NCBI GenBank assembly: GCA_964017235.1
Contig: OZ024929.1
Span: forward strand, 21,697,464 to 21,761,463
Length of the DNA stretch: 64,000 nt
Direction: 5' to 3'
DNA from: Sabellastarte sp. h YS-2021
Lineage: Eukaryota; Annelida; Polychaeta; Sabellida; Sabellidae
A model generated the notes under the pieces. It was not told where the DNA came from. It saw only the letters and a list, made by a program, of their open reading frames with translations, and ran no database searches. Positions 56,488-64,000 of this stretch are shown piece by piece (positions within the stretch are counted from its first letter, which is position 1; every line of letters starts with the position of its first letter). The translations under genes were made by a program, and so were the position numbers.

Positions 56488-56740
56488 TTTCTACGCATTT
56501 TATCTGTCTTTTATTCACACTCATGAGACCAAAACCCTGTATTTGCTTAAATATCCATGTGCACAGTTATTCAAATAGCCAGAGTAATAAGGGTGAGCAG
56601 TCATAAAACCACTCAAAAGCCTAATTATATAAAATACCATAAAAATCAATATTTGATCATAAATGGGATTATATGGGATTCTGATGCAATAATCATATCA
56701 CGTCACATCAAATGTTACATCACGTAAAATTACATCAATA

Positions 56741-57750
56741 TGGATATCAGAGTGAATTATGTTTGTAGAATTTGCCATAAGGCCTTCACTAAGAACTCTA
56801 GCAACATGTAACTAATTCACACTGTTCCTCAGACCAGCTGGTGATATATTCATTTGAGAATAAAAATAAATAAATAATTTTACTCAACAAAGTTTTTATT
56901 AGTGTATATTAATGACAATATAAACTAAAGTGTATACACCTCTACAGTACTGCAATGTGGATGTAAGAGTGGATTATGTTTGTGGAATTTGCCATAATAC
57001 CTTCACTAAGAACGCTAGCCTCAAAAGGCACAAGGCAAATGTACACCTTATTACTCACTTCAATTGCTTGATATGCCCAAAATCCTATAAAAGAAAAGAA
57101 GACATGATCAAACATAGTAAAATTTATTTGAAAAACATTTAGAGTCAGACTGTGAGGCTTCAGAAAATGCACCACCATGCACCTCCACTAGTACGGACAG
57201 CACACCATCAAATCTGCTCTCCAGTGACATCAGTGATGTAGTCCAAGACCTCATTATGAGCGACAGTGAAGATGGCGACCTAGACAAGATGGCCACCAAA
57301 CTTGAGAACAGTGTACCCACAAGAAGTATTTCCAGACCGACAAATACAATCATAAGCTGTTTAGAAATGGTTGACAAATCAACCAATACAGAATCATTAA
57401 TAGTGATCACCCCTAACGAGATTCTGGATCCAGGGGAGAAACTATTGGAAAAACACATGGACTGTTGGATATGCCGACTTCACTAGGAGACTCAATGGAA
57501 GATCCTCACTCCCCAGTTAGCAGCACACACTCTCCATCACTCCACATCACTCCCCTCATTTGTAAACACCTACTACCTCACACACTGTCACAAAAGCAAA
57601 AGTATCTGTGGAAATGGACTGCACACAAGCAGAGCTCACCCTCGAGGATATGTACAGGAGGGAGCCAACCAGGCCAAGTCTATTTGCGTCCCCACTGAAA
57701 AGACACAAACTGGCATCAATCCTGAAAAAAATAAATGTTGACTTAATGTT
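56741..57750 (+). pseudogene. C2H2 zinc-finger reading frame, broken, with a duplicated first finger
   Basis: 56930-57142 encodes YVCGICHNTFTKNASLKRHK-ANVH (C-x2-C-x12-H-x4-H) and FNCLICPKSYKRKEDMIKHS. A decayed copy of the first finger (YVCRICHKAFTKNSS) lies 200 bp upstream at 56755-56812. After a frame change near 57140 an acidic Ser/Thr-rich segment runs to 57486 (ESDCEASENAPPCTSTSTDS ... CLEMVDKSTNTESLIVITPN), then a third frame reads VSVEMDCTQAELTLEDMYRR and SPLKRHKLASILKKINVDLM to a stop near 57750. It may be cargo of, or captured by, a neighbouring element; no family assigned. Confidence 0.5.
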
Positions 57751-57800
57751 GTAAAATGAAATTGTTTTCCTTTTATATTTCAACAAAAATATATATATAA

Positions 57801-58920
57801 TTGTCCATTTCGTGAAATGGACAAGAAAATTGGACAACCAAACTGTCCATTTTGTGAAATGGACAAATCCATATGTATTTTCCTATCCATTTCATGAAAT
57901 GGACAAAGTTATGTATGAAAGTTAAAATTTCATTCATCGCCAATCTTTTGGTTTAAGTTATCCACTTTATTCCCCTATAATTATAATAATATGTATCTGA
58001 AATATCTTACACTAAGTTAGTTAATAGTTAAATAGTTAAAACAATTTGAAATAAAAGTGTTAATTAAATCATACTTTTTAATGGGAATAACTATTTAAAA
58101 TTACACTCACACTTTTAAAAAGCATATTGGTATCTGGTATATTGTTTAACTTTTGCTTAAAAATTATAAGAGAACTTTGTCTCTTTTGTGCACTAGTCTT
58201 GTTTAAAAGACTTTCCTTTAATGAATAGATGTGAGGAATTGTAGCCTAACCTTTGAAGATTACCTCTGAGGGTTATTAAAAGTAACTATCAATTTAAAAA
58301 GGTTGAAGCCATCCTAAAAATTGCAAAAAGAAGTGGGCTAATTACAATTAAATCCAACGTACAAGTGGTGAGGCTTTCTTTAAATGAGATCTGTGGTTTG
58401 TAGCCAACCTTTTGAGGATAAGATCTAAGGGTTAATTCAGTGGCTGTAATAGTCATAAACCTCATGATAATGTGGACAAGTAAATAACAACAGTGATATC
58501 AACATTTGCAATTATTAATGTAAATAAACTACCAATGTGGCTTAGTGTTAAAAGTTCCTAATGTTATAAAATATATGTTGTGGGTTAGTCTCACCTAGAT
58601 GCTAAACTCATAAATTTTTAATAAATATAAATACAGATATTTAACTAATATTGTAGCTTAATCATAGTAGGATCGTGTTAGATTTTATAAGAAAAGGTTA
58701 AAGCAATTATATTTACTTGCACATCACTAGTAGTTAAAGTACAACCATTTATGTACAACCATTTTTTTTCACACACACATACAAAAAACAAAAAAAATGT
58801 TTTTTCACTGTGAATGAGAGTAAAAATTTCGTACATTTACGTCATTTTCATGAAATGGACAAATATTTTGTCTATTTGACGAAATGGACAGTTGGATTGT
58901 CCATTTCATGAAATGGACAA
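57801..58920. mobile_element. Non-autonomous element with three palindromes at each end
   Basis: Palindromes built on TGTCCATTTCRTGAAATGGACA lie at 57801-57824, 57844-57865, 57886-57903 and, inverted in order, at 58843-58860, 58869-58890, 58897-58920. The two ends are inverted repeats of each other, including the spacer AACCAAACTG / CAGTTGGAT. The interior is AT-rich, non-coding, with a partial internal duplication (58211-58277 versus 58374-58436). No target duplication resolved. Confidence 0.85.
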
Positions 58921-59408
58921 TTTCACACCTGGGTCATAACATATATATACCCTTAATATTGCTATTGTCCTTTACTCACATTTCTAGTTAGTTGTGTAAC
59001 ATCAAATCGAGTGTTATTTCAGCGTGTTGAGGTGTGTCATTGTTCCTTCATTGTTTGAGTTTGATTGTTTCAGTTTGAATTAGGTGTTGAACAGTGTGGA
59101 CATGTTTTTTGGGCCTCTCTAATTGTTTGGGAAGAATAACCTCAAATCTAAGAGAGGAGAGAGGACAATCCAACTGTATACGTAACATATTGATCATGTA
59201 TAGAGACTAATGATATATCGTAATTATTGTACCTTGTAATCAGTTCTAATCATATTGTAATTATATCTCATTTCAGATGACCGTGGTCATTGTTTACTAA
59301 TAAACAAATAGACAGTGTTCTTATCTATGACCACGGCCAGAACTCAAACCAGAGGCAAAGATACCAAGTTAGACTTGTGAAAACAGGACACACACACCAT
59401 CTACAATT
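58921..59408 (+). other. Leader and possible 5' LTR of the Ty3-type element
   Basis: Precedes the gag start. Contains AATAAA at 59299-59304 and an inverted pair ATGACCGTGGTCAT (59277) / ATGACCACGGCC (59326). LTR limits and primer-binding site cannot be fixed without the 3' LTR, which is outside the window. Confidence 0.35.
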
Positions 59409-60421
59409 ATGTCAGCTGTGGAGTGCCCCATCCCTGGATGTACCTAGAAGACAGATGACCTGGATGCTATTATTGTTGCTGCATTACTCAATGCACATAG
59501 CGCTACACACAGCCCCAACCTGGGGGCATCTGCTAAAGTAGAAAAAGTCAAAAGGCCAACAGTATCCGCTGCTGGCTCCAGTGAGGAATGGTCATACTTC
59601 GAGTCATGTTGGAAAGACTATGTAGATGCCACAAAAATCACAGGGCAAGATAGTTGTCCAGCTCATTGAATGCTGTGATGAAAAGCTCTGGACAGACCTG
59701 ACAAGATCCGCAGGGGGAAGCTTAACCAGCAAAACTGAGCAACAAATACTAAGTGCCATGAAAAAACTTGCTGTACGTGAAGAAAATACAATGGTTGCCA
59801 GAGTAATATTGCACAATATACATCAGGACCGTGAGGAGACAGTACGAAGCTGGTGCTCACTTACGCGGACAAGCAGGCATTTGTAAATTCCTGGGAAAAT
59901 GCCCAGGATGCAATACTGATGTTAATTACACAGAGAGTGTGCTACGCGATGTACTCACCAAAGGCATAGCCGATCCAGAAATCCAGCTGGACCTACTTGG
60001 TAGCAACAATCAAGACATGTCACTTGAAGAGGTCTTTAAATTTGTTGAGACTAAGGAGGCCAGGAAACGTTCTGCATCACGTTTGCTTGACTCACACACA
60101 GTTGAATCAACAAGCAGTTCATACAGGAAAAGCAAACAAACAACCCAGAAACAAAATCAGGAACCCTGCTCTTATTGTGGCAAGAAAGGACATGGCAGAA
60201 GTGCTCCAGGTTGCATCCGAAGAAGAGAATGTCCAGCATATGGACACAGATGCCAACTATGCAGTCGTGACCACCACCTTGAACTCGTCTGTCAAAGCAA
60301 GAACAAGCAGAACAGTAACACTGACACATTAGAATTGGATGAATGTGAAGGTACCATCTTCAACTCTCTGTGCGCAATAAAAAACCTTTGCCCCACAAAA
60401 CTAGATATTCAGTTGCCTTAG
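59409..60421 (+). pseudogene. Ty3-type retrotransposon gag, broken
   Basis: Likely start ATG 59409. The frame opens with a C-x5-C pair (CPIPGC), meets TAG at 59445-59447, and continues through WSYFESCWKDYVDATKITGQ. A frameshift near 59650 leads to VVQLIECCDEKLWTDLTRSA and ALAVREENTMVARVxL-type sequence (KKLAVREENTMVARVILHNI), and another near 59850 leads to GAHLRGQAGICKFLGKCPGC. The nucleocapsid end has CSYCGKKGHGRSAPGCIRRR, ECPAYGHRCQLCSRDHHLEL: a C-x2-C-x3-GH-x4 knuckle and a second Cys/His cluster. Ends at TAG 60419-60421. Confidence 0.85.
60379..60385 (+). promoter_or_regulatory. Canonical -1 ribosomal frameshift heptamer A-AAA-AAC
   Basis: In the gag frame the codons are ATA AAA AAC, so the X-XXY-YYZ register is exact. 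A -1 slip here enters the protease frame, which is open across this point and has no ATG nearby. The gag stop follows 34 nt later. No pseudoknot was modelled. Confidence 0.75.
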
Positions 60422-61218
60422 ATCACCACATCTATGATCAGCTGTCAGACACATGGATCAACAAGGGTTCCAAACCCCAGCCATATATCAGCCTCACAGC
60501 TAAAGTTGCCCTAGAGGACTACAACGCACTCGGATTCAGGCAGCCGGCTGATACCAACACTGTGGCGATATCTGCAATGGCCGATACAGGCTGTCAAAGC
60601 TGCTTAACTGGCATCAGAATAGTGAAGCGTCTTGGTTTACATGAGAAAGACCTTATTCCAGTAAAGATGAAAATGCATGCAGCAAACAATAAGGGAATTT
60701 GCATCCTTGGTGCCACATTCCTTTGTCTCCTTGGGAAGGATCAACATGGCCAAACAATTGAGACCAGGCAGATGACGTATGTAACAGACAACTCCAAGAA
60801 GTTCTTCCTCAGCAGAGAGGCCTGTATCACACTTGGCATTATCCCCAAAGACTTCCCGGAAGTAAGTACAACTTGCAACACCATACAGGTGCCAAAGCCT
60901 TGTGAATCATATGACCCTACGTATGATCAAAACAATGATGTTTCCAACAGGGATTGCAACTGTCCCGCACGCCAAAAACCACCCCCACCACCTATAAACT
61001 TACCATTTCCTGCAATAGGAACAAATCGTGCCAAGGTACAAGAGTACCTGTTAGATTACTACAAATCGAGCACCTTCAACACCTGCGAACACCAAACACT
61101 ACCGCTAATGGAAGGACCTCCCATGAAACTGATGGTGGACCCAGATGCCACCCCTACTGCACATCATACACCAGTCCCTGTACCACTGGCAAGATCAAGT
61201 CAAGGCAGGACTGGACCA
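60386..61218 (+). pseudogene. Ty3-type protease region and linker to RT
   Basis: Open from the slip site to TGA 61219-61221. Protease core MADTGCQSCLTG (60577), in which D-T-G is the catalytic aspartate triad, followed by FLLGATFLCLLG-like flap and LSREACITLGIIP (60811). Then a Pro-rich linker (CPARQKPPPPPINLPFPA) and a conserved PPMKLMVDPDATPTAHHTPV string before RT. A one-step frame change near 61185 leads into the frame that continues as RT after the inserted MITE. Confidence 0.85.
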
Positions 61219-61235
61219 TGATGTTAGATTAGGAG

Positions 61236-62033
61236 TAGTGTTCTCAATAAACCCTTTTTACTAGGACCGGGTATGCAGTGGTTTCAGCGGGCGGGTACCC
61301 GGGTACCCGCGCCGATGGGCGATAATAGCTGAAACTACAAATATCTCCATATTTACAGACTTAAAACCTACAGAAATAATGGGATGCAACCATTTGCTTT
61401 ATTTCTTGTTGGCCACGGTTTTGCATTCAAAACAATATTGCATGAAAGAAAGGTTAAATAAATAAAAAAAGACATCTGTACATTCAAAACACGGTTGTTT
61501 ATATAAAAATGGAGTCACATGACCTATCACAAGAGCATTACACTACAACTCGAATGTAGTTTCGGAATTGAAACTTTATTTTTATTTCAGGATGTAAGTT
61601 AATTTTATTAACGTAAAATTATTAACTACTGTGTGAAAATATTGTACTCTTATTTATTTAAGGAGTGCATGTCACTATATATGGCCAATATACAGCGTTT
61701 TATGGACTCGGAATTAAGAAACTGTGTTGATATACTGACGATTTTCAAAGGGTTCCGGTATTTGACAATGTATAAACAACTAAAATAAAAGACAAATAAA
61801 ATACTATAAACGGTGTACAAGGGTGAGAAAACAATATTATTATGCATTTTAATTGAATAGTTTCATTTTAGAGTGAATTAATGAAGTCCAGATACGTCTG
61901 TACTTGGTCAGCCAATGTGGGCGATATTAACAGAAATAAGCTTAGATTCGGGTACTCGGGTATGAGATTTCAGATTCGGGTAAGTATTCAGGGTTCGGGT
62001 ACCCGGATATCCGGGTACCCGTTGAGATCACTA
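61236..62033. mobile_element. hAT-type MITE inserted in the Ty3-type pol gene
   Basis: 798 bp. Terminal repeats TAGTGTTCTCAA (61236-61247) and TTGAGATCACTA (62022-62033) are inverted with 11 of 12 matches. Flanks are a perfect 8-bp duplication ATTAGGAG (61228-61235 and 62034-62041), fitting the Ac-group nTnnnnAn pattern. Subterminal GGGTACCCGGGTACCC (61295) and GGGTACCCGGATATCCGGGT (61998) are palindrome-rich. The interior is AT-rich and non-coding. Confidence 0.92.
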
Positions 62034-62041
62034 ATTAGGAG

Positions 62042-63455
62042 TCCTTGAACAGGTCCCCATAGGAGAACCCGTGACCTGGTGCCACAGAATGGTTGTGTGT
62101 GCCAAAAAGAATGGCAAACCACGGAGAACGATTGATTTTCAGGCATTAAATGCCCATGCTAAGAGGGAGAGACACCATACCCCATCACCATTCCATCAAG
62201 CTAGATCTGTACCTCATGGCAAGAAAAAAACTGTACTAGATGCCTGGAACGGGTATCATAGCGTGCCAATACCCAAGGAGGACAGACACCTTACCACTTT
62301 TATTACATTATGGGGAAGGTACAGGTACAAAACTGCACCTCAAGGTTATATTGCTTTTGGTGATGGCTACACACGTCGCTATGATGAAATCGTGTCTGAC
62401 ATCCCCAACAAAACCAAATGTGTGGACAACACCTTACTTTGGGCAGATTCCCTAGAAGAAAGCTTTTTCCAAACCGTTCAGTGGTTGGATATCTGTGGGC
62501 GACATGGGATAACACTAAACCCTGACAAATTCATATTTGGTCAGGACACTGTAGAATTCGCAGGCTTCAAAACAACCTTTGACAGCGTTAGACCATCCTC
62601 AAAATACCTGCAGGCCATCTTAGATTTTCCAAGCCCCAAGAACATCACGGATGTGCGTTCATGGTTTGGTCTCATCAATCAGGTATCTTATGCCTTCAGT
62701 ATGGCACACCGGATGTTACCATTCCGTGAGTTACTCAAACCTGGAACAGCGTTCAAGTGAGATGACCAACTCCAATCCATATTTGAAGAGTCAAAAACCG
62801 TAATCACCAATGACCCCAGCAAACCTACCTGCCTAGCTACCGACTGGTCAAAAACTGGCATCAGATTTTGGCTTTTTCAAAAACACTGTAGATGCCACAA
62901 AATAGAGCCATTCTGTTGCCATGATGGATGGAAAATCACACTTGTTGGCAGTCGTTTCACCCATAATGCCGAATCACGATACGCCCCTGTGGAAGGCAAA
63001 GCCCTTGCTGTTGTTGATGCCTTGAACAAGGCAAGATACTTTATTTTAGGATGTGAAGACTTGGTAATTGCAGTAGATCACAAGCCTCTACTGAGGTTAT
63101 TCGGCAACAGTTCCCTCGAAGACATCTCCAACTCTCAACTCAGAAACCTTAAGGAGAAAACACTCAAATATCGCTTCAGAATGGTACATATCCCTGGTAT
63201 CAAAGATCGAGCAGCAGATTGTGTCTCCAGGCACCCTGCTGGTGACCCAGCGAAGCTGCCTCTACTAGATGATGATACAGAGGCCATAACAACCTGTGGT
63301 AGAGTACAAACAGTTAGCTCTTGTAGTTCCGCCACATACCAAGAGAGCATTGAGGACACAATTCTGTCATCCTCCGTGTCATCCCTCAAGTCCCTTGCAA
63401 CAAGATCGATCACATGGGATACTATTTGGAGCGCAACCACCAGCGATAAAGATAT
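62042..63455 (+). pseudogene. Ty3-type reverse transcriptase and RNase H, broken
   Basis: RT: CHRMVVCAKKNGKPRRTIDF, LNAHAKRERHHTPSPFHQA, TVLDAWNGYHSVPI, FITLWGRYRYKTAPQGY, then CVDNTLLWADS where active elements have a Y/F-x-D-D box, so the second Asp is Asn. GFKTTFDSVRPSSKYLQAIL and PKNITDVRSWFGLINQVSY follow. TGA at 62758-62760 replaces a probable Trp. RNase H: CLATDWSKTGIRFWLFQ, ESRYAPVEGKALAVVDALNK, VIAVDHKPLLRLFGN, IPGIKDRAADCVSRHP. Frame lost near 63450. Confidence 0.88.
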
Positions 63456-64000
63456 GCACACATGAACTTATCACAAGTGGTCTCCCTGAGGCCAAGAACG
63501 AGTACCCAGCCTCAATATGTGAATATCACCAGTTTCGCAATGATTTATATACAGTAGATGGCGTGATAATTTACAAGGACCGTATCCTTTTACCACCTGC
63601 ACTGTGACCAGAAGTGCTTTCAAGCCTGCATGCAGCCCACCAAGGTGTTTCTTCCATGATTGCAAGAGCTGAAGCATCTGTATTCTGGCCTGGGATCACA
63701 CCAGCCATAACCATGTATCGTGCCCAGTGCAACCACTGTAATCGAATAGCACCCTCAAATCTAAACAGCCCTCCCATACCACCCACTATACCAGACTACC
63801 CATTTCAGAATGTGTGTGCAGATTTCTTCCACTACAAAGAGACTAATTATCTGGTAATAGTAGACTGATACTCCAACTGGCCCATAGTTGAAAAGTCCGT
63901 GGATGGAACTGCAGGACTAATTGCCTGCCTCAGACGAACTTTTGTAACCTTTGGTATACCAGATGAACTATCTTTTGACGGTGGGCCCGAATTCACCTCC
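63456..64000 (+). pseudogene. Ty3-type integrase, 5' part, cut by the window end
   Basis: ASICEYHQFRNDLYTVDGVI, a stop at 63605-63607, then the HHCC zinc finger (LHAAHQGVSSMIARAEASVF ... QCNHCNRIAPSN), the first core motif VCADFFHYK, a stop at 63866-63868, and the second core motif SFDGGPEFTS at the very end. The third catalytic Glu and the 3' LTR are beyond 64000. Confidence 0.85.

Follow-up and report, generated by a model that had tools for sequence, protein, structure and literature searches.

The window (the whole 64,000-nucleotide stretch of DNA analysed) contains a 1.14-kb element with six imperfect 24-bp palindromes arranged three and three at its two ends, which we interpret, with a probability of roughly 65%, as a decayed copy of a family (family A) of non-autonomous Ginger2-type cut-and-paste transposons with ends that consist of arrayed sites for transposase dimers. 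This reading draws on the termini, a target consensus, an array geometry common to family A and a sister family, B, palindromes that are better conserved than the spacers between them, and a net gain of 4 bp at filled sites of family B. From the sequence features, a Ginger2 transposase is the probable mover, and we propose that its dimers would occupy the palindromes and that many such sites together would bring about synapsis of the ends.

Within the window, the family A element occupies positions 57801..58941. All six palindromes lie within four substitutions of TTGTCCATTTCATGAAATGGACAA, and at this threshold the window holds six matches as compared with zero in every one of 20 mononucleotide shuffles, which bears out the earlier note's description of six near-identical palindromes, three plus three, at the ends of a ~1.1-kb element. 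The left array consists of palindromes at 57801..57824, 57843..57866 and 57883..57906, the last of which is separated from its neighbour by a 40-bp step, equal to the inner step (91 to 131) of the four-palindrome end described below; the right array consists of palindromes at 58839..58862 (degenerate, with four substitutions), 58868..58891 and 58897..58920 (its dyad lying 33 bp inward of the right terminus). Both stretches that had been described as perfect proved to be so: 58897-58920, across all of its 24 bp, and 57886-57903, across its 18 bp. As had also been claimed, the left and right ends are inverted repeats of each other that contain the palindromes, but the palindromes are not themselves the termini: the right terminus, ACA, falls at 58941, 21 bp beyond the last palindrome. 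These right terminal 21 bp (58921..58941, minus strand; TTTCACACCTGGGTCATAACA, which reads inward as TGTTATGACCCAGGTGTGAAA) are retained, and the left 21-bp tip is lost; in a comparison with eight left ends, a target-site remnant, TATATATATA plus A, was recognised at 57790..57800, and the canonical tip TGTTAYGACCCARRTGTGAAA was absent before the first palindrome. The TATA at 58942..58945 is probably the right copy of a 4-bp target-site duplication, judging from the flank consensus of family A and the filled and empty sites of family B. The interior (57920..58830) is non-coding, having no open reading frame of at least 60 aa with an ATG, GTG or TTG start, and matches other copies: besides itself, 40 matches at 79-88% identity were found (the best 40 of 564 candidate places), lying on many contigs and 79-85% identical over long stretches.

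The surroundings of the element hold other repeats. An exact 15-bp inverted match to the right array (GGACAATCCAACTGT) lies at 59163-59177, 222 bp outside the element, and is perhaps a fragment of another copy. Upstream, at 56731-57142, a C2H2 zinc-finger-like ORF (judged by eye) sits inside a 72-bp repeat pair that is 86% identical, and the region just downstream (59300-64000) contains a broken gypsy-like retrotransposon with zinc-knuckle, protease- and reverse transcriptase-like ORFs, likewise judged by eye.

A search of the 1.79-Gb genome (647 contigs) with TGTCCATTTCNYGAAATGGACA, allowing at most one mismatch, returned 2,420 matches, compared with none for the reversed control. We sampled all 19 clusters among the first 100 palindrome places listed, all of them on contig C1. 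Every one of these matched the window element, three of them (L011, L012, L021) in the end arrays only; among the sampled loci, its interior was matched at 77-84% identity. Alignment of their ends placed the end of the element 21 bp outside the outermost palindrome, at the tip TGTTAYGACCCARRTGTGAAA. Canonical termini (with at most four substitutions) were present at both ends in 14 of the 19 C1 clusters, at one end in four (L017, L021, L022, L025) and at neither in one (L026). The expectation of a many-copy mobile element with paired ends was therefore supported, and palindromes scattered singly, which would have spoken against it, were not the pattern found among these 19 clusters.

For 39 family A termini, picked by similarity of the tip and not by the flank, the bases outside and at the terminus read R-T-R-T-A-T-A | TGTTA. 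The first five bases of the element were T in 39, G in 37, T in 39, T in 38 and A in 38, and in the flank position -5 was a purine (R) in 39/39, with positions -4 to -1 being T (37), A (39), T (38) and A (38). The terminal inverted repeat (TIR), measured to the inner palindrome, is ~145-165 bp long. The 196 distinct A termini listed yielded at least 30 inverted pairs at a distance of up to 12 kb, and these fall into a narrow size class, with 24 of the 30 spanning 1,149-1,323 bp, the rest 1,858 to 7,673 bp and a median of 1,263 bp. These pairs, like the 33 from family B described below, were selected as inverted and come only from termini among the matches listed, so that unpaired ends are to be expected. 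At one place (G000:C8:37657273-37686367), four A termini in the same orientation lie ~9.68 kb apart, which points to a tandem duplication encompassing an A end; at another (L023:2473 and 4617), the 25-bp flanks beyond both A termini are identical and inverted, as in a fold-back or inverted duplication.

A complete element of the sister family B lies at L013:2616-4214, with the tip TGTTACAGTCAATCTGTGAAAC, palindromes of the form CAGTCATTACGCGTAATGACTG and 175-nt inverted arms that are 87% identical. A 44-base B tip pattern, with up to three mismatches, was found at 514 + 513 places in the genome, and 33 inverted pairs, hand-picked among the places listed, ranged in length from 589 to 9,288 bp (median 1,498 bp). 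Long B copies contain interior tandem arrays, with a 169-bp unit repeated 42 times in L036 and 25 times in L034, a 351-bp unit in L037 and units of ~168/356 bp in L035, where the array splits the fifth palindrome from the other four; this transposon thus seems to carry satellite-like arrays. A separate 33-bp tandem repeat lies upstream of the B element in L013, from ~487 on.

The palindromes differ between the two families, and their dyads lie at nearly the same distances from the tip: 33/62/91/120/153 bp in B and 33/62/91/120/152 bp in A. In B, dyad centres were found at 33, 62, 91 and 120 bp in 10/10 termini and at 153 bp in 4/10, these data coming from five elements, four of them close relatives. 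In the 36 A termini with at least two palindromes, centres were found at 33 (31 termini), 62 (24) and 91 bp (21), together with 120 (8) and 152 bp (7) at one end type and 131 bp (7) at the other; the remaining positions were scattered, as expected for decayed copies. A five-plus-four distribution of palindromes over the two ends was seen in A copies L014, L015 and L030 and in B copies L013, L034, L036 and L037, with as exceptions L019 (3 and 5), L035 (4 and 4) and the window element (3 at its right end). Judging from these better-kept copies, the 3+3 arrangement of the window would be a decayed form of the 5+4 arrangement. When the 36 A termini were aligned, mean column identity was 0.925 in the tip, 0.937 in the palindromes (96 columns) and 0.753 in the spacers (51 columns), in a set chosen for tip similarity and at least two palindromes, which favours the tip and palindrome columns. 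Exchange among the repeated units could also contribute to palindrome conservation and, with this caution, copies appear to have kept their palindromes while the spacers drifted.

The register bears on an alternative in which a host transcription factor or insulator-like protein, and not a transposase, would recognise the palindromes. A dimeric host factor would be well served by a sequence-specific palindrome of high copy number, but the sites here are terminal and in register with the cut site, the sister family keeps that register with another sequence, and there is no reason for a host site to hold its distance from the tip; we consider this alternative quite improbable, if not so remote as the rolling-circle and solo-LTR readings discussed further below.

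Evidence for the target-site duplication comes from B copies L036 and L037, which occupy the same position, in the same orientation, in a host repeat. A first look at this repeat gave 1,021 candidates, and of the 40 that were scored, 40/40 matched through the insertion point. All four empty copies that were read have CACACACACA-TATATATAT-CTC, with 9 nt of TA run. In the filled sites the element is preceded by TATATA and followed by TATATAT (6+7), so that 4 bp are gained on balance; only the length of this gain is certain, the target being a TA run, and in a TATATATA target such a gain is indistinguishable from 2+2 bp of element. The first 1,015 bp of the two copies are 98.6% identical, and L036 is also 98.6% identical, over 921 bp, to L034, which is located elsewhere, so they may represent one insertion copied with the host repeat, or two. 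The 169-bp array of L036 is absent from L037 at the same point. The 4-bp gain was seen at filled versus empty sites of family B only; the duplication of family A is taken from its flank consensus alone, the A comparison (L028 flanks versus L027) being, at 73% identity, too diverged to size a duplication.

A TATA target was found in both A and B, and the CCGG or CCGT target of Ginger1 was not encountered. Beyond TGT...ACA, the net gain is 4 bp in a TA run, and part of the TATA could be the element's own, which bears on the TA duplication of Tc1/mariner elements. The usual terminal bases of mariner differ from the TGT...ACA ends seen here. Kolobok and piggyBac elements duplicate TTAA, and membership of either was rejected on account of the TATA target.

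The earlier note had raised both a target-site duplication and an autonomous copy; the first stands as the 4-bp gain in B, and neither the long copies nor the integrase probes revealed an A or B element that encodes a transposase of its own. Long A copies (L015, L022-L024) have no ORF over 137 aa, and long B copies (L034-L037) contain tandem repeats and, in ORFs read by eye, no recognised transposase; L035 also holds a gypsy-like integrase fragment. A first integrase probe led to two Ginger1 copies, L038 and L043. The first of these (L038:495-4708) has an 806-aa ORF, a CCGG duplication and, at both ends, paired inverted subterminal repeats (GCCATATTTTACACCCC and its reverse), and the CCGG target is present on both sides of L038 and at the 3' end only of L043. 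For the protein encoded by L038, matches were obtained to models of H2C2, rve and Ulp1 (rve and SH3_Tf2-1 under curated cut-offs). A second probe, which we take to represent Ginger2, gave at least 153 matches from 150 scored of 5,040 candidates. Integrase-type transposons are present in the genome in the form of two Ginger1 copies and the many second-probe matches. Family A termini lay within 4 kb of second-probe matches, on the inner side, in 2 of 100 cases, compared with a mean of 0.033 in 2,000 shifts (two or more in 0.05% of these). This is weak evidence of a linkage and was set aside: one of the two termini closes a complete 1.26-kb element that does not include the neighbouring integrase, and the second may likewise be the end of a separate element. 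Among the matches listed, 0/166 B termini had an integrase match within 12 kb. Integrase matches on contig C560 (G000) recur every ~9.2 kb, as in a tandem array of a gypsy-like element.

TIRs, TGT...ACA ends and the 4-bp gain in B are marks of a DDE cut-and-paste (integrase-like) transposase, and the transposases of Ginger elements are closely related to integrases of the retroviral type. We envisage that such an enzyme, made elsewhere, would recognise the 21-bp tip TGTTAYGACCCARRTGTGAAA and the row of palindromes behind it, each palindrome probably being bound by a transposase dimer, by analogy with piggyBac, at fixed dyads, which are 33, 62, 91, 120 and 152 bp inward of one tip and, at the opposite end, 33, 62, 91 and 131 bp inward. 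Next, this transposase would pair the ends, cut at TGT...ACA and insert into RTATAY with a 4-bp TATA duplication, and the array may raise the efficiency or fidelity of end pairing. The multi-site transposase that the earlier note had entertained is thus the mechanism we favour, on inference. Five plus four dyads in exact register would suggest a large, ordered complex. Going further, it is conceivable, although we would sooner bet against it than for it, that the two families share a scaffold of five plus four sites, their dyads 33 + 29n bp inward of the cut site, and differ in the palindrome placed on it, so that specificity evolves via the palindrome and the multi-dimer geometry stays fixed. 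If so, families in one genome would keep separate addresses. With their register in common and their palindromes distinct, the two sister families offer a direct test of how enzyme and site co-evolve.

An assignment to Ginger2 has to be weighed against convergence, in which a cut-and-paste element from a different and perhaps undescribed superfamily would have come to share TGT...ACA ends and a TATA target with Ginger2. In the published description (PMC2836005), Ginger2 has TGTNR ends, 4-bp duplications, an RTATAY target preference, a TIR of 45-297 bp (Table 2) and a short derivative, Ginger2-1N1_NV, of 252 bp, and its transposase has an H2C2 finger and a DDE core, without GPY/F. The elements here have TGTNR...YNACA termini, the RTATAY target, a TIR of fitting length and a 4-bp duplication, the last from the B site and perhaps from one event. 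This joint fit of four separate traits (terminal bases, duplication length, target and TIR length) counts against convergence, which gains from there being no transposase linked to the ends and from the palindrome arrays, which go unmentioned in the main text of PMC2836005, where 'palindrom' and 'subterminal' have no occurrence. In the open-access literature we found no report of palindrome arrays in Ginger2, and the letters of the palindromes likewise gave no relevant match. On balance we regard convergence as unlikely, while granting it real weight.

The earlier note had also considered a rolling-circle or single-strand transposase, and an element of the HUH or Y1 type that uses hairpins would draw on the folding of both arrays as single strands (DNA energy z -8.4 and -5.6). 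The hairpins that had been suggested can form, but any palindrome array would fold, so that folding is not evidence that they are used. Rolling-circle elements (Helitron, HUH/Y1) normally have neither a target-site duplication nor TIRs, and the inverted repeats at both ends, the TGT...ACA termini and the 4-bp gain at the filled B site make this mechanism highly improbable here. To the proposal of a solo LTR of a gypsy retrotransposon, alike in its TGT...ACA ends and 4-bp duplication and with gypsy-like pol ORFs (by eye) downstream at 59.3-64 kb, we give scarcely any credence, since these ends are ~150-bp inverted repeats with arrays on both sides and LTRs are built otherwise.

Returning to the Ginger2-type reading, several known systems place many transposase sites behind the tip, including hAT, CACTA, Tn7 and Mu, mostly not as perfect dyads at a fixed 29-bp step. 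The piggyBac and piggyBat elements have a TTAA target and an unrelated transposase. Family A and B ends are compared with them here for their arrays. According to PMC11707139, a pair of piggyBac transposase C-terminal domains binds an end palindrome, and Tol2, Tag1, Ac and Tn7 are cited for repeated subterminal sites. According to the same source, piggyBac and piggyBat resemble the present elements in having near-end palindromes, several sites and unequal ends, and differ in having fewer sites and, for piggyBat, imperfect palindromes at one end only (PMC11707139). The Ginger1 copies L038 and L043 share the TGTNR ends, and L038 has paired inverted subterminal sites, which may be common in Ginger ends; they differ in the CCGG target (CCGG or CCGT in the text of PMC2836005), the Ulp1-like tail of L038 and a different repeat without the 33/62/91/120 register. 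In the case of Ginger2/TDD (Bao, Kapitonov and Jurka 2010, PMC2836005), the main text says nothing of palindrome arrays and no transposase is tied to the ends here, while the ends, duplication, target, TIR length and short derivative given in that text are all alike.
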